Positions 14,347-27,342 of a DNA stretch of 29,766 nucleotides are shown piece after piece. Under the pieces are notes generated by a model. The model did no database searches, was not told the DNA's origin, and saw only the letters and a list, made by a program, of their open reading frames with translations. Position numbers and translations under genes: made by a program. This DNA is from a virus: positions 1 through 29,766 of IMG/VR virus record IMGVR_UViG_3300020207_000109. One strand, written 5' to 3'. Each line of letters opens with the position of its first letter. The first letter of the stretch is position 1.

Positions 14347-14796
14347 ATGCAGTGGACTTATGAAGGCAAACCAATTGATGTTATACCAGACGAATACGAA
14401 GGCTTTGTTTATCTCATAACCAATCTTACCACTGGGCAAAAGTACATAGGCAAAAAATTAGCAAAGTTTAAAACTACTAAGCCACCTCTTAAAGGCAAAA
14501 AGAATAAACGCAGAGGCTACAAAGAATCAGACTGGCGTGACTATTGGGGATCGTCAGACAGATTGAATGCAGATGTACAGGCACTAGGCCCAGAAAACTT
14601 CACAAGAGAAATACTATACCTATGTAAAGGCCGGGGCGAAATGTCCTACATTGAGGCAAGAGAGCAATTTGACCGCCGTGTATTAGAGAGCGACGAGTAT
14701 TACAATGGAATTATTAATGTTAGAGTTGGCGGTTCCGATAAATTGCGACAGGCTTTGCTAGAACACACCATAAAGGCAAAACAATCCAACACATAA
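14347..14796 (+). CDS. GIY-YIG family nuclease
   Basis: This 149-aa protein has a GIY-YIG domain: GFVYLITNLTTGQKYIGKK (residues 19-37), with the two half motifs VYL and YIG 11 residues apart. A lysine/proline-rich insertion follows (TTKPPLKGKKNKRR), then DWRDYWGSS, ENFTREIL (Arg87) and ARE (Glu106 region). The C-terminal YYNGIINVRVGGS is typical of this phage subfamily. These enzymes nick or cut DNA; some are homing endonucleases, others act in repair or recombination. No partner intron is visible. It may be a free-standing nuclease working near gp46/47, or a selfish element next to the noncoding RNA region that begins right after its stop. The ribosome site is weak. Confidence 0.82.
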   Translation: MQWTYEGKPIDVIPDEYEGFVYLITNLTTGQKYIGKKLAKFKTTKPPLKGKKNKRRGYKESDWRDYWGSSDRLNADVQALGPENFTREILYLCKGRGEMSYIEAREQFDRRVLESDEYYNGIINVRVGGSDKLRQALLEHTIKAKQSNT

Positions 14797-15953: not shown

Positions 15954-16184
15954 TTAAAAGTGCGGTAATTTAGTTTTTTCAGTAGTCTTATAATTATCAT
16001 CGACAATTTTTGCAATGATTTCTCTGTCTTCTGGAGAAAGATCATACGCTTCAGTAAGAGTAATACCTCCACGCATTAGCCAAGTAATTTTTAATAGTTC
16101 GTGTTTAGTTTGTTTTACTTGTTCGTCTAGGATCCTAACTTCTTCTAAAATTTCCGAGATGGATAGAGTTAGGATCCTGAGCCG
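15954..16184 (-). CDS. 51: gp51-like baseplate hub assembly protein, read as a -1 frameshift extension of gp26
   Basis: This frame encodes 76 residues up to the stop at 15954-15956. It contains TKHELLKITWLMRGGITLTE followed by AYDLSPEDREIIAKIVDDN, which I recognise as the small gp51-type hub-assembly protein of marine T4-like phages. The frame is open only from 16199 (a TGA lies at 16200-16202) and has no ATG, GTG or TTG before the conserved region. It lies in the -1 frame of gp26. At 16190-16184 gp26 reads T TTT TTC in the right register, followed by a 5-nt spacer and a 12-bp stem (16178-16167 with 16140-16129) covering the gp26 stop. The predicted product is 294 gp26 residues plus 76, about 370 aa. 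Alternatives are a rare ATC/ATT start or a sequencing indel in the six-base run. Confidence 0.8.
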   Translation of the reverse strand, partial: RLRILTLSISEILEEVRILDEQVKQTKHELLKITWLMRGGITLTEAYDLSPEDREIIAKIVDDNYKTTEKTKLPHF

Positions 16185-16190
16185 AAAAAA
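16129..16190 (-). promoter_or_regulatory. Programmed -1 frameshift signal: slippery heptamer, spacer and stem-loop
   Basis: The heptamer TTTTTTC (16190-16184) has zero-frame codons TTT TTC, the X XXY YYZ form. The spacer is 16183-16179 (5 nt). The perfect 12-bp stem pairs AGGATCCTAACT (16178-16167) with AGTTAGGATCCT (16140-16129) around a loop of 26 nt. Heptamer, distance and stem strength all match textbook -1 frameshift stimulators. Confidence 0.8.
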
Positions 16191-17065
16191 TTTGAGTGAT
16201 CAAACTGCATAGGCACTTGGTATTTGGCCGGAGCACCTGCTTCAATTTCCTCTGGTGTTGCTTCAACATCAATTGGTTGGCTAGTAAATCTATCTCTAAG
16301 TTGTTCAACATGTGATTTAATAATATTAAAAACAGAAGAGTCTGCATTTTCAATAAATTCTCTAATGTGCTGTTTGTTAGTTACAGGATCTTCGTCTTTA
16401 TATTGAATAGCAGTAATGCTATCAGAAATCATTGTAACATTTAATGCAGTAATATTTTTAAAAGTTTTAGAAAATCTGTCTAGTTTTTCTGCCTCTGAAA
16501 TTGTATTATCGTTTACAATACTTAAAACACGCTGTTCTTCAAATGTTTTTGTAGCAATCTGTGTAAACTGTTTATAGTTCATTGGTTGTACTTGAACTAA
16601 AAATTCTTCTGCTTGAATTACATCTTGGTATTCCATTGCAAGATACTGATCAAGCAATGTTCTTAGATTAAGATCAAACTCTTTTTCCATGTCTGTGTTA
16701 GGAACTTTACCTTTTACGGTAATTTTTTCACCAAATGTTGCAATTCTAATAGCAACAAGAATAGCGTCTAGATCAATTGATGGACATTGCCAGCCATCTT
16801 TAATAGCAGGAATACAACTTTGAATAACATCAACAGTGCTTTGACCATTCATTAGTGCATCTGGAGTTTTCATAACAATTTCGTCTTTTGCTGTCATAGC
16901 AAAAACAGGTACTTCACCGTTTTCAGGTAAATCAAGAGAACCTTTAGCCCAGTATTTTCCTCCACTAGGTAGTCTTAGATAAATTTTAGGTTGCCTAAAA
17001 TGTTTCTGTAAAGGGTTTCCACCTGGTGGTTGTAAGTTTGCAATTTGATCTGTATTATCTGACAT
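16169..17065 (-). CDS. 26: Baseplate hub / tail assembly protein gp26
   Basis: This 298-aa protein is of the T4 gp26 family (Pfam T4 baseplate protein). The N-terminal pattern YLRLPSGGKYWAKGSLDLP (residues about 29-47) followed by VPVFAMTAKDEIVMKTPDAL is typical of the family; a helical domain runs from about 95 to 260 with DVIQSCIPAIKDGWQCPSID nearby. T4 gp26 is 208 aa. In T4, gp26 and gp51 help build the central hub around the tape measure. The ATG follows AGGAGG and a perfect TATAAATA late promoter. The zero-frame product ends FFGSGS just after the slippery heptamer, so both a 298-aa form and a fusion with the gp51-like part are expected. The neighbouring divergent gene is the tape-measure candidate, its likely client (inference). 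Confidence 0.85.
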   Translation of the reverse strand: MSDNTDQIANLQPPGGNPLQKHFRQPKIYLRLPSGGKYWAKGSLDLPENGEVPVFAMTAKDEIVMKTPDALMNGQSTVDVIQSCIPAIKDGWQCPSIDLDAILVAIRIATFGEKITVKGKVPNTDMEKEFDLNLRTLLDQYLAMEYQDVIQAEEFLVQVQPMNYKQFTQIATKTFEEQRVLSIVNDNTISEAEKLDRFSKTFKNITALNVTMISDSITAIQYKDEDPVTNKQHIREFIENADSSVFNIIKSHVEQLRDRFTSQPIDVEATPEEIEAGAPAKYQVPMQFDHSNFFGSGS

Positions 17066-17133: not shown

Positions 17134-19545
17134 ATGGCAAAGGTTCAAATAGACATTCCTGGCGTAGGTTTAGTAACCGCAGAAAATGCGGCGTCTGAAA
17201 GCACTCTTCGCGAACTTGTCAACGCTATTGGCGGTGCCGGCGGCGGCACTGGCGGTGGAAGCACAGGCGGTGGAAGCACCGGCGGTGGTATGGGAGGCGG
17301 ACTAGCAGGTATAGCCGGTATTGCAGGTTTATTAGGCATGCTAGGAAGAAATTCTAAAGTTGCAGGTAATGCAGTTGGCGGTCTTGCTGGTGCTATTGGC
17401 AGTGCATCATCGGGTGCTGGCCGTGGACTTTTTGGAGCAATTGGCGGTGCAATTAAAGGTGTGTTTAAATTTGGCGGTGCATTAGCTGGATTTGCACTAG
17501 GTGCTGTAACAAACTTTGCAAAACAATTAATATTTGGAGAAAATAACTTACAGACTCTTGTGAGCATGATACCTATTGTAGGTAAACATCTGCAAGGGCT
17601 TGCTGGAATTCTTGATACAACACTGAATACCTATAGGCAATTATCCGAAATAGGTGCAAGTTTTGGCAACAACATGTTTGGCTTTATGCAATCTGCAATA
17701 AGAGCTGAAATGAGTCTTACAGACTTTGCAACATTCGTCTCTCAAAATACAGAATCGCTTGCTATTATGGGCGGAAGTGTTACTGAAGGTGCTCGTAGAT
17801 TTGCTGATTTAAGCAAAGGCATGAGAACAAGTGGAATTGCAGAACAACTATTTAATATGGGTTTCAGTATTGAAGAACTCAATGACGGATTAACAAGTTT
17901 CTACGAAGAAAATGCACGTAGCGGTAGAATACGTAGAATGAGTGATGCAGAAATTGTACAAGGTGCCCAAGAATACGCAATAGAATTAGATAGACTAGCA
18001 AAACTAACAGGCATGAGTCGTCGAGAAGCCGCAAGAAGTAGACTTGAAGTACTAAGTGATGCTAAGATTCGTAATATGGCTAGCAAATTAGAAGGCCAAG
18101 CTCGCGAAAACTTTATTACAAACATGACCATGATCAACAGATCGGCACCTGGCATGGCACAAGCATTTGATGATTTAGCAGATGGTGTTGCACAAACTGA
18201 CGTAGGTAGACAACTTATGGTTGCTACCCAAGGTCGTGCCGCTGATGTAGCAAGATTAATTGCTGAAGGAGCTGATCCAGAAGTAATTAGAAGTGCATTA
18301 TCGGAACTAGGTCCTGTAATTGATCAATTTAGAAGTCAATATACTGATGCACAGTTACAGGCTATGCAAACTAACAATCCTGCACTTTATGCAATGTTGT
18401 CCGGTGCTCAAGAATTAACTAGAATGGCTGAAAGTTCTGCTAGGGTAATTAGTGATGAACAAAACGCCGGTGATAAATTTACAGCATTTATGACTAATCT
18501 TGAGCAATCTATGCAATCATTTAAGAGTCAAATATTAGACACATTTGTTAACAGCGGATTGTTTGAATCTTTAACAGAAATGTTTAATGACTTAGACATA
18601 AGTGGCAGTACTGCTAAAGATATGTTTAACAGTCTTAAACCTGCTATTGAAGGTACAATTAATTGGTTCGACGGATTATTAGATAGTTTTACATTTGGCG
18701 ATGCAGAAACAGGTGTAGGCGGACCAGTTGAATACATTAAAAACAGTGTAAACGGTTTACTAAAAAATATGTTTGACGTAGGAGAAGATCAAACACTTGG
18801 CGATGCGGCACAAAATAAAATGACAGAATGGTTTGAAGGAACCATGGATTGGCTTAAAACAAATGCACTTCCTCCGGCAGAAAAAGTTGGAGAATATGTA
18901 AGCGATGCATTAGGAACTCTTTGGGAAAGTATTAAAGAATCAATGTTACCTAGTGCAGGTCAAGTGGTAGCAGGAGGATTAGCGGCTATTGGAACTGCGG
19001 CAGCTATAGCATTTGCTCCCGTTACTGCTCCGTTATTAGCAATCGGTGCGGCAGCGGCCGCCGTAGGAACATTAGTAGGGTCATTATTTGATGATGCATA
19101 TAATGCTGTTGCAAACTGGGATATTATGGAGTCTATGGGCAAAATGTGGAGTAGCATTGTAGACGCATTTAGTTTTGATATTTCACTGCCTAGCTTTACT
19201 GACTATTTGCCAACTTGGTTAGGCGGAGAAGGAAAACCTCTATCTGATCTATTTGCTAGTAGCTCAAGTTCAACATCGGTTGCAAGTGCAGGACCTACCG
19301 TTGATACTACCGCTCCTGATCTAGGAACTGTAACACAAAATCAAGCAGAAATACAACAAACAAATAGCCAAATTGCTACTGCGGCACAACAACTAGCGGC
19401 TAGCAGTGACACTCAGAAAAACATTGAAACGCTGTTAAAAGACTTAAATACTACAATGCTTGCGATTCTCGATGTTAACGATAGAAGTGATAGAACATTT
19501 GATCGTGTTCGTAGAAACCTTGCACTAAATTATAATTTAGGATAA
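17134..19545 (+). CDS. Tail tape-measure protein candidate
   Basis: This 803-aa protein has tape-measure architecture. A short beta start (MAKVQIDIPGVGLVTAENAA) is followed by a Gly/Ser repeat (about 33-57), then hydrophobic Gly/Ala-rich segments (about 58-130) including GGALAGFALGAVTNFA. The middle (150-600) is long and helical. A second hydrophobic region, AAIGTAAAIAFAPVTAPLLA and following (about 610-652), could insert in the membrane. The C-terminus is coiled-coil-like (QAEIQQTNSQIATAAQQLAA). T4 gp29, the tape measure and hub protein, is 590 aa and shows little sequence conservation, so the call rests on architecture and on location between gp26 and portal. No strong ribosome site precedes the ATG, which follows an AT-rich leader. 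Confidence 0.7.
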   Translation: MAKVQIDIPGVGLVTAENAASESTLRELVNAIGGAGGGTGGGSTGGGSTGGGMGGGLAGIAGIAGLLGMLGRNSKVAGNAVGGLAGAIGSASSGAGRGLFGAIGGAIKGVFKFGGALAGFALGAVTNFAKQLIFGENNLQTLVSMIPIVGKHLQGLAGILDTTLNTYRQLSEIGASFGNNMFGFMQSAIRAEMSLTDFATFVSQNTESLAIMGGSVTEGARRFADLSKGMRTSGIAEQLFNMGFSIEELNDGLTSFYEENARSGRIRRMSDAEIVQGAQEYAIELDRLAKLTGMSRREAARSRLEVLSDAKIRNMASKLEGQARENFITNMTMINRSAPGMAQAFDDLADGVAQTDVGRQLMVATQGRAADVARLIAEGADPEVIRSALSELGPVIDQFRSQYTDAQLQAMQTNNPALYAMLSGAQELTRMAESSARVISDEQNAGDKFTAFMTNLEQSMQSFKSQILDTFVNSGLFESLTEMFNDLDISGSTAKDMFNSLKPAIEGTINWFDGLLDSFTFGDAETGVGGPVEYIKNSVNGLLKNMFDVGEDQTLGDAAQNKMTEWFEGTMDWLKTNALPPAEKVGEYVSDALGTLWESIKESMLPSAGQVVAGGLAAIGTAAAIAFAPVTAPLLAIGAAAAAVGTLVGSLFDDAYNAVANWDIMESMGKMWSSIVDAFSFDISLPSFTDYLPTWLGGEGKPLSDLFASSSSSTSVASAGPTVDTTAPDLGTVTQNQAEIQQTNSQIATAAQQLAASSDTQKNIETLLKDLNTTMLAILDVNDRSDRTFDRVRRNLALNYNLG
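17251..17289 (+). repeat. 15-bp tandem repeat encoding Gly-Gly-Gly-Ser-Thr
   Basis: Units of GGCGGTGGAAGCAC(A/C) at 17251-17265 and 17266-17280, with a partial third copy after. They encode GGGST repeats in a flexible segment of the tape-measure candidate. Confidence 0.75.
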
Positions 19546-26430: not shown

Positions 26431-26435
26431 ATATT

Positions 26436-26480
26436 ACGTTCATCCTACGGGACGGAAGTAGCATAATGCGAAGGAACGCA
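26436..26480 (+). promoter_or_regulatory. Glutamine riboswitch (glnA / Downstream-peptide class)
   Basis: The sequence fits the glutamine-binding aptamer consensus: P1 arms CGTTC (26437-26441) and GAACG (26474-26478), P2 TCC-TAC-GGGA, the conserved core GGGACGGAAGTAG (26449-26461), a short P3 GCA-TAA-TGC, and GCGAAGGAACGC at the 3' side. This class is known from cyanobacteria and marine metagenomes, where it precedes glutamine synthetase, other nitrogen genes or short downstream peptides. Here it precedes a 32-aa frame. Ligand and class come from established knowledge; the effect on expression is not visible. Confidence 0.85.
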
Positions 26481-26507
26481 CTTTAACCCTTTAACTAGGA
26501 GAAGTGT

Positions 26508-26606
26508 ATGAGTAAATATACCCTTTGGTGCTACACAAGACTTTTCAGACAGCACCATATAGAAAAAATTAACTTTTTGGTAAGAAAAAGGTTGACTTCT
26601 GCGTAG
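26508..26606 (+). CDS. 32-aa downstream peptide under the glutamine riboswitch
   Basis: This short frame begins MSKYTLWCYTRLFRQHHIEK and ends in a basic segment FLVRKRLTSA. AGGAG lies 6 nt upstream of the ATG. It starts 28 nt after the aptamer, matching the Downstream-peptide arrangement. Its last codons overlap the -35 box of the ncRNA promoter. In cyanobacteria, short proteins under this riboswitch include glutamine synthetase inhibitors (IF-type); I do not see convincing similarity to those here, so function is open. Confidence 0.65.
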   Translation: MSKYTLWCYTRLFRQHHIEKINFLVRKRLTSA

Positions 26607-26620
26607 CAATTTGCTATATT
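26592..26620 (+). promoter_or_regulatory. Sigma70-type promoter for the 26627 RNA
   Basis: TTGACT (26592-26597), exactly 17 bp, then TATATT (26615-26620). It has the same form and spacing as the two consensus promoters of gp55 and gp47. Expected +1 is 26627. Confidence 0.75.
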
Positions 26621-26626
26621 ATACTT

Positions 26627-26871
26627 AATATAAAGGCGACGGCTTTTATAGTGTAGTGCAAGGAAGAGGCGTTTACCAGAGCGTCGAACTTGGCTAGTTA
26701 GGGGTGGTACCCAGGCATGGTAGTAGAAATACGCTGTGTCACATCGCTCTACCGAGCGGAACTAGGCTACTGGGGTTTCAGATGGTATCGGGTCCCCGGT
26801 TTGCAGGAAAACCTAATCCTGTCTACACAATTTATTAAAAGGCTTACAGCGAGAGTTGTAGGCCTTTTTCC
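26627..26871 (+). ncRNA. Apparently undescribed structured RNA of about 245 nt
   Basis: A transcription unit without a plausible gene: sigma70-type promoter upstream and intrinsic terminator at the end. The 5' end folds into an 8-bp hairpin (26629-26636 with 26643-26650) whose loop CGACG (26637-26641) is complementary to CGTCG at 26682-26686, a likely pseudoknot. Further pairs are CTAGTT (26694-26699) with AACTAG (26760-26765), GGGT/ACCC (26702-26712), TCGCTC/GAGCGG (26744-26759) and CAGG/CCTG (26804-26821). The region looks more GC-rich than the neighbouring genes. I found no signature of tRNA, tmRNA, RNase P RNA, 6S RNA or a group I intron. Because the promoter is of host type, it may be made early, before the late genes around it. 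Confidence 0.65.
26839..26871 (+). terminator. Intrinsic terminator of the ncRNA
   Basis: A 10-bp stem (26839-26848 with 26857-26866, one G-U pair) and 8-nt loop, followed by a T-rich tract. It would also stop transcripts coming from the riboswitch promoter. Confidence 0.9.
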
Positions 26872-26877
26872 TTTTTA

Positions 26878-26885
26878 GATAAATA
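26878..26885 (+). promoter_or_regulatory. Late promoter for the virion protein operon
   Basis: GATAAATA, expected +1 near 26891, right after the ncRNA terminator and before a leader of about 88 nt leading to the 26980 gene. Confidence 0.65.
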
Positions 26886-26890
26886 CTTTT

Positions 26891-26979
26891 GTCAGATAGT
26901 GTGCCGCAGGGCGGACTTATGCTGAACCAACAGCGTAGCGACTAGAACTCGCATCGGACTTCTAATAAGGAGAAAACAA
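26891..26979 (+). promoter_or_regulatory. Structured leader of the 26980 gene
   Basis: Three small hairpins fit within the leader: CCGC/GCGG (26904-26914), ATGCTG/CAGCGT (26919-26936, 6-nt loop) and GCGA/TCGC (26938-26952). The heptamer CGGACTT occurs twice (26912 and 26955 regions). AAGGAG then precedes the ATG. It may stabilise the mRNA or sense something; no known riboswitch core is visible. Confidence 0.4.
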
Positions 26980-27342
26980 ATGGGAAGACCACTTAATAAA
27001 AGATACTTTGGTGCAACTGGTGCGTCAGACGCAACAGTTCCAGTAAGATTTCACGACGGATCAAGCCTAATTGAAGGTTACATTGTAGAACAAAAAGGTT
27101 CTAATAAATTTAAATGTTCAAACGACGGTGACACAATTGAGCGTACTTGTTTCTTAACAAGCGACGGAAGCACACCTAATGCTAACAACGAATGTCAAAT
27201 TATTGGCATCGGTGCAGGCGGTGCGGCTATTGCTATTGCTAAAATTACAGGACGTAAAGCAGTTGACTATGATGGAAATTCTTATACATGGGCAACTGAA
27301 GATGACTCTACAGAATCGCTACTAAGATTAACAGCAATCTAA
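26980..27342 (+). CDS. Conserved small virion-type protein (MGRPLNKRYFG family)
   Basis: This 120-aa protein starts MGRPLNKRYFG and continues with beta-rich, Gly-rich sequence, ending with YTWATEDDSTESLLRLTAI. Proteins with the LNKRYFG start are frequent in marine phages and are usually unassigned. It has no signal peptide or catalytic motif. As first gene of a late unit followed by fibre-like proteins, it is likely structural (inference). Strong AAGGAG precedes the ATG. Confidence 0.65.
   Translation: MGRPLNKRYFGATGASDATVPVRFHDGSSLIEGYIVEQKGSNKFKCSNDGDTIERTCFLTSDGSTPNANNECQIIGIGAGGAAIAIAKITGRKAVDYDGNSYTWATEDDSTESLLRLTAI

Follow-up and report, generated by a model that had tools for sequence, protein, structure and literature searches.

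A stretch of viral DNA that we analysed carries a -1 frameshift signal at the end of a gp26-like gene, and the slippery heptamer of this signal is conserved in phase in nearly all homologues. Judging from its sequence, the locus very probably encodes the tail-assembly chaperone pair of a T4-like phage, consisting of a short form and a -1 frameshifted long form.

The DNA, hereafter the window, comprises 29,766 nt (positions 1-29,766 of the 29.8-kb IMG/VR record IMGVR_UViG_3300020207_000109) and comes from an uncultured virus. It encodes the T4-type portal protein gp20 (PF07230), the major capsid protein gp23 (PF07068), a head protease and a late sigma factor, as well as baseplate wedge and hub proteins and gp46/gp47-like recombination nucleases. 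The nearest isolates are the jumbo phages Sinorhizobium phage Phosso, Agrobacterium phage Atu_ph07 and Pseudomonas phage PA5oct, followed by 121Q, GAP32, BF, CBB and RaK2, and IMG/VR is rich in closer uncultured relatives (48-65% identity).

A frameshift signal at the end of the gp26-like gene

The features of the locus are as follows.

16169..17065 (-): gp26-like gene, putative short tail-assembly chaperone (TAC-N), 298 aa; PF12322, phrog_150, AlphaFold2 pLDDT 87.7
16184..16190 (-): slippery heptamer T_TTT_TTC in the gp26 phase (NNT TTT TTC); read directly and conserved in homologues
16179..16183 (-): spacer GGCTC, 5 nt; read directly, with the same distance from heptamer to 5′ arm in the window's clade
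16167..16178 (-): 5′ arm of the stem, AGGATCCTAACT, which includes the gp26 stop; complementarity, z of -3.55, covariation
16141..16166 (-): stem loop, 26 nt; an alternative 3′ partner for the 5′ arm is located here in some relatives
16129..16140 (-): 3′ arm of the stem, AGTTAGGATCCT
15954..16190 (-): -1 frame C-terminal domain (TAC-C) and stop, FFRLRILTL...KLPHF, 78 aa including the two slip-site Phe
15954..17065 (-): predicted frameshift fusion (TAC-NC), 370 aa, join of 17065-16184 and 16184-15954 with base 16184 read twice

The gp26-like ORF ends in AAT TTT TTC GGC TCA GGA TCC TAA, and its stop (16171-16169) lies inside the 5′ arm of the stem. Open from 16199 to 15954 (81 codons), the -1 frame extends 71 codons beyond this stop; its definition as TAC-C is based on the open frame, on alignments, on an AlphaFold2 model and on its likeness to the C-terminus of T4 gp51. 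A first-pass annotation of the window had described a gp51-like -1 frame which encodes a full domain yet has no usable start. This is borne out, as no ATG, GTG or TTG is present in the N-terminal part of the frame or near the junction and the first start codon, ATG at 16076-16074, is found only in mid-domain. The heptamer in register at 16190-16184, the 5-nt spacer and the perfect 12-bp stem around the gp26 stop had likewise been placed correctly, and the predicted fusion has the length of about 370 aa that had been anticipated. The heptamer T_TTT_TTC conforms to the X_XXY_YYZ pattern in phase. By itself this type of heptamer is not unusual, with 10 occurrences in the window compared to 17.5 expected, and because it is common the case must rest on comparison.

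The slip site is conserved in phase

Our set of complete homologues (n=303) covers jumbo phages, uncultured relatives, cyanophages and a KVP40-like phage; relatives were collected with separate clade alignments, and the heptamer scan used trimmed query starts. T_TTT_TTC was present in 297 and T_TTT_TTT in four of the 303, so that 301 carry T_TTT_TTY, always in the same phase and extended by 50-80 residues in the -1 frame. All junctions of the 28 relatives checked first had T_TTT_TTY in the gp26 phase and, after it, a homologous -1 frame; the same was true of S-SSM7 and S-RIM8, both cyanophages, and of the KVP40-like PC-Liy1. Because the heptamer is conserved in phase across homologues, chance is removed as an explanation.

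The codon preceding the two Phe codons occurs in ten forms (AAT, AGT, TCT, GAT, CAT, ACT, GCT, CGT, TAT and GGT), and its last base is T in 301 of 301 homologues although the encoded residue varies. For codon tests the homologues were clustered at 70% identity into 104 representatives. Given the codon use of each gene, the joint probability of this T among them is about 10^-29 with kinship ignored, and that of a first Phe codon which is always TTT is 10^-16, again over the 104 representatives and with kinship ignored. Across the homologues the gp26 stop is located 3 to 33 nt past the heptamer; since its position shifts in this way, the slip site is kept independently of the stop. Programmed -1 frameshifting, as put forward in the first-pass annotation, is thus supported by the phase-exact heptamer in 301 of 303 homologues, by the third-base T whatever the residue, and by a selected 3′ stem described below.

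Homopolymer runs are error-prone and our data derive from an assembled metagenome, which would be compatible with a base missing or extra in the T run of a gene whose true form is a plain fusion, or with a broken gene. We consider the probability of such an error negligible: the same frame relation is found in 301 of 303 homologues, including the finished isolates PA5oct, RaK2, 121Q, GAP32, Atu_ph07 and S-SSM7, and a second assembly of a nearly identical phage (L002) has the same six Ts, with one spacer base different. Sequencing error and pseudogene were both rejected, being refuted by the comparison of the 303 homologues, and the one-base error in the six-T run that had been named as a possible flaw is ruled out.

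A different way to express the -1 domain would be as a small protein of its own, made by re-initiation or coupling at the gp26 stop. Several records annotate it as a separate protein, T4 gp51 is a separate gene, and ATGA, TAATG or a similar sequence occurs at the junction in Phosso, Atu_ph07, 121Q and XbC2; the lack of a gp51 start that had been expected in relatives was seen in PA5oct and RaK2 but not in these four phages. Separate translation is nevertheless highly improbable, as no start codon lies near the junction in the window, PA5oct or RaK2, T4's separate gp51 has an N domain of its own, and the heptamer and stem would be left without a role. Moreover, the domain is conserved right back to the slip site, where FFR is invariant in 41 sequences. 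Based on the missing junction start in the window and on conservation that reaches the slip site, we rejected separate translation in favour of -1 frameshifting.

Two of the 303 homologues, L034 and L153, are exceptions to T_TTT_TTY. The junction of L153 has five Ts instead of six and an in-phase A_AAT_TTT, which represents either a natural slip-site replacement or an assembly error. In L034 (3450-3520; Vibrio phage SD25, Ackermannviridae), gp26 ends in CAC GTT TTT CGC TAA and the -1 frame encodes the C-domain; the motif GTTTTTC is a different slip motif resembling the GTTTTT reported for Vandenendeviridae. The TAC locus of the latter, from phage Adele (PMC12846349), differs from ours in this GTTTTT motif and belongs to Pseudomonas phages of a different family.

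A selected stem follows the slip site in the window's clade

The arms at 16178-16167 and 16140-16129 are 100% complementary over 12 nt and enclose the 26-nt loop. For the stem region we obtained a folding energy of -20.2 kcal/mol (z = -3.55), with none of 200 shuffles as good; the window holds one other perfect 12-bp stem. The 60 nt past the heptamer have a mean z of -1.91 compared to -0.26 for windows within the same genes (p 8e-20), and z is below -2 in 48% of the post-heptamer regions versus 7% of the same-gene windows. No unusual structure was found past the heptamer in the RaK2/GAP32/BF type, which comprises two short jumbo-phage groups. Both heptamer and stem had been expected to be conserved at the junction of relatives: the heptamer is (301/303), whereas the stem is conserved in most of the window's clade and no such structure is evident in the RaK2/GAP32/BF-type groups.

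The stem might be a by-product of the protein sequence, since both of its arms encode Arg-Ile-Leu in the -1 frame (RIL...RIL) and, for the window alone, its chance under codon resampling is 0.035. The window's clade, represented by 50 sequences at 90%, argues against this. Its 5′ arm starts at a constant distance from the heptamer, and with at least 9 of 11 pairs the 3′ partner is the window's site in 24 of the 50 and a site 18 nt nearer in 12, while neither partner fits in 14. The better 3′ partner forms on average 9.3 of 11 pairs versus 7.2 after synonymous resampling of the -1-frame codons (maximum 7.7 in 1000 trials), and 36 sequences reach at least 9 pairs compared to 10 under resampling. 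Swapping 3′ arms among clade sequences lowered pairing in 2000 of 2000 trials. In an unselected 29-sequence alignment, 18 cells of the long-loop stem were changed on both sides versus 8.9, with 0 of 500 shuffles as high, and slid versions of this stem all pair far less; support for the short-loop stem with the nearer 3′ partner is weak over the whole set when taken alone. RNAalifold did not find one structure common to the mixed clade alignment, a result explained by the varying 3′ partner and by poor stems in 14 of the 50.

Within this clade, the 3′ stem is thus under selection beyond coding need, as it outperforms synonymous resampling in 1000 of 1000 trials and arm swaps in all 2000 and shows changes on both sides, so that a mere by-product is unlikely. 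The same holds for a transcription terminator: we rejected the stem as an intrinsic terminator because no T run follows the 3′ arm. With 12 bp at 5-nt spacing, a z of -3.55 and selection at the clade level, it has the features of a stimulator of -1 frameshifting.

Cyanophages carry a different candidate stimulator

The gp26/'gp51' loci of cyanophages and a KVP40-like phage (S-SSM7, S-RIM8 and PC-Liy1) resemble the window in the in-phase T_TTT_TTC and in the 'gp51' C-domain in the -1 frame, and differ from it in a large putative tape-measure gene which lies downstream on the same strand. The cyanophages (loci L229-L308, L031 and L032) also differ in a Shine-Dalgarno-like GAGGG upstream of the gene-26 heptamer, which is present in 70 of 70 cyanophage representatives and in 0 of 50 of the window's clade. 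Its Glu codon precedes the first T of the slip site by 14 nt and is GAG in 86% at this site compared to 30% elsewhere (p 6e-22, kinship ignored), so that GAG is strongly favoured over GAA here and at no other codon. We consider GAGGG a candidate for a dnaX-like stimulator.

These elements also bear on transcriptional slippage, in which RNA polymerase would add or drop a U in the T6 run such that part of the mRNA reads into the -1 domain. Slippage would yield the same fusion, and nearly all homologues have the six-T run. Six Ts are, however, short for it, and it needs no fixed phase, yet NNT TTT TTY is found in all 301. The in-phase A_AAT_TTT of L153, with its five Ts, suits re-pairing of tRNAs and not a homopolymer, and both the stem at a fixed 5-nt spacing and the cyanophage GAGGG 14 nt upstream would be ribosomal stimulators. 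We therefore regard transcriptional slippage as very unlikely compared to ribosomal frameshifting.

A joint reading of these groups, which we offer tentatively and as possible rather than probable, is that an ancient gene-26 slip site, T_TTT_TTY, was kept across T4-like phages and that its stimulator was exchanged between groups: cyanophages would use GAGGG and the window's clade a 3′ stem, and RaK2-like jumbo phages lack an evident structure. As part of the same tentative picture, the 5′ arm of the stem would be fixed and the 3′ partner would switch between two sites 18 nt apart. If true, the stem could be bistable where both 3′ partners fit, and could thereby tune the short-to-long ratio.

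Both domains are homologous to T4 gp26 and gp51

The gp26-like protein scores 38.2 bits against PF12322 (cut-off 24.5, E 1.7e-9), which places it in the T4 gp26 family, and it also matches phrog_150. PF12322 spans all of T4 gp26 and residues 1-201 of the 249-aa T4 gp51; because it ends at 201 of 249, T4 gp51 consists of a gp26-type domain and a C-terminal piece. The C-terminus of T4 gp51 aligns with the -1 domain (hhalign E 3.6e-5, probability 71%, 34 columns, profile of three sequences), and the N parts align as well (E 2e-4). The predicted fusion has the PF12322 domain followed by the C-domain, which is the order in T4 gp51 and that of a long chaperone. The proposed gp51 equivalence holds insofar as the gp51 C-terminus resembles the -1 domain, but T4 gp51 corresponds to the whole fusion and not to the -1 domain alone. 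A bare C-domain is called 'gp51' only in cyanophage annotation, and this standalone protein has matches to phrog_634 ('baseplate hub assembly catalyst') as well as to the C-terminal end of phrog_150.

The -1 domain has no Pfam match and no strong PHROG match, and AlphaFold2 predicts it to be small and all helical (pLDDT 88.3). For the N part, the model (pLDDT 87.7) resembles predicted baseplate hub proteins of the T4 type; Foldseek returned no match at E below 1 for it against the PDB, and no solved structure with a sequence match was found. Residues 13-111 of this model align with the HK97 tail assembly chaperone 2ob9 over 86 of 107 residues at an rmsd of 4.6 and a Z of 5.5, which is below 8 and in the noise range. 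Among the PDB chains listed, 2ob9 is the only one that aligns solely to residues 13-111; since its Z is within the chance range of the aligner, we take the match only as a hint.

Searches of BFVD with the gp26 fold matched A0A191ZCG4, A0A0K2QR08 and A0A1L7N169 at E 1e-4 to 1e-5. These proteins of about 500-550 aa come from phages Special G, RSF1 and RP12 and are possibly undescribed chaperones of phiKZ-like phages.

A tape-measure candidate next to gp26

17134..19545 (+): tape-measure candidate, 803 aa, divergent neighbour of gp26; position, strand, variable length and hydrophobic stretches

From these properties, the divergent neighbour is likely to be the tape measure. It is found in the same place and on the same strand in 133 of 212 non-redundant relatives, with a length of roughly 560-1100 aa in complete examples and with hydrophobic stretches, and it is homologous to the RaK2/PA5oct-type gene at the same place (hhalign E 2e-32). 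The RaK2 record likens the product of its neighbour gene to a tape measure, and a note in the PA5oct record lists the corresponding product as a structural protein by mass spectrometry. The 803-aa candidate by itself has no family match, and profile comparisons with T4 gp29 and with KVP40-type and cyanophage downstream candidates revealed no link. The tape-measure candidate had been described as directly adjacent, and it does lie next to gp26, but on the opposite strand and with no sequence link to T4 gp29.

A short and a long chaperone

In gpG/gpGT-type systems both products are needed for tails and are absent from virions, and the frameshift rate sets their ratio. We infer that in the window's phage most ribosomes would end at the gp26 stop and produce the 298-aa short form (TAC-N), while a minority, held by the stem beginning 5 nt downstream, would slip by -1 on U_UUU_UUC, with both Phe tRNAs re-pairing on UUU UUU. 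After the slip, 76 codons would be read in the -1 frame to give the 370-aa long form (TAC-NC). If the parallel with lambda gpG/gpGT holds, the shared N part may coat the tape-measure protein and the extra helical C-domain may recruit tail-tube subunits, and because of these two proposed roles the short-to-long ratio would matter. We favour a short and a frameshifted long chaperone because T4 gp26 and gp51 share PF12322 and the C-terminal piece of gp51 resembles the -1 domain. The locus also shows the arrangement of such a pair, namely a short ORF with a C-terminal extension in an overlapping frame and an in-phase slip site in 301 of 303 homologues.

The G portion shared by both lambda proteins binds the tape measure, and the T portion, a product of -1 frameshifting at a low rate of about 1 in 30, brings in the tail protein (PMC5009743). 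The arrangement is described as conserved among long-tailed phages 'except T4' (PMC5009743), and in TP901-1 a forced fusion led to non-infectious particles (PMC4493119). Our locus resembles lambda gpG/gpGT in its short and predicted -1 frameshifted long chaperone with the C part in the -1 frame; the lambda pair lies beside a tape-measure gene, and ours beside a candidate for one. It differs in the heptamer (G_GGA_AAG in lambda, U_UUU_UUC here), in the larger size of the gp26 family (about 280-300 aa), which has no sequence link to lambda, and in the candidate tape measure, which is divergent and not downstream. With T4 it shares the N domain PF12322 and the extra C-terminal piece that gp51 carries; T4 differs in that gp26 and gp51 are, as had been stated, made from two separate, divergently transcribed genes, so that a frameshift is not needed. 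The view that gp26/gp51 are the T4-family equivalent of G/GT is supported by this domain architecture, with PF12322 in both proteins and a gp51 C-terminus similar to the -1 domain.

A 2022 study by Vladimirov and colleagues is said to name genes 26 and 51 in its abstract and reportedly describes frameshifting as kept in several T4-like groups, with the gp26 family as short chaperone, a long form composed of the gp26 domain and a C-domain, and genes 26 and 51 that are separate in the T4 group. The G/GT parallel for the T4 family therefore stands as a reading of the locus and not as a new idea. Tail-assembly chaperone genes for T4-like phages were proposed by Vladimirov, Gautam and Davidson in 2022 (Virology 566:9; cited in PMC10885494, PMC12846349). 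The core claim is thus already published, and our gain lies in breadth and detail. What may be new is the breadth over jumbo phages, the covarying stem, in which a constant 5′ arm has two alternative partners on the 3′ side, and the Shine-Dalgarno-like GAGGG that precedes the heptamer in cyanophages. The lambda-type logic of a short and a long chaperone, long thought absent from T4, appears as a conserved trait of diverse T4-like phages, jumbo phages included. Furthermore, the in-phase slip sites with different stimulators provide a ready dataset for comparing frameshift rates.

The long chaperone form is missing from public annotation. The records of PA5oct (L017) and RaK2 (L019) list no C-domain and mark no frameshift; in others, including GAP32 (L021) and Munch (L023), the -1 domain is absent or appears as a short separate hypothetical protein from a truncated gene, again with no frameshift marked.

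Other elements in the window

Between the gp46-like gene and the tail genes, the window encodes a GIY-YIG homing endonuclease of the SegE type (14347-14796, +; PF19835, E 1.2e-35). In addition, three known RNA motifs are located in tandem at 26435-26982 (+), between the gp23 gene and a 120-aa unknown ORF:

26435..26482 (+): glutamine aptamer, first of the three
26629..26832 (+): manA RNA, second of the three
26900..26982 (+): freshwater-2 RNA, third of the three
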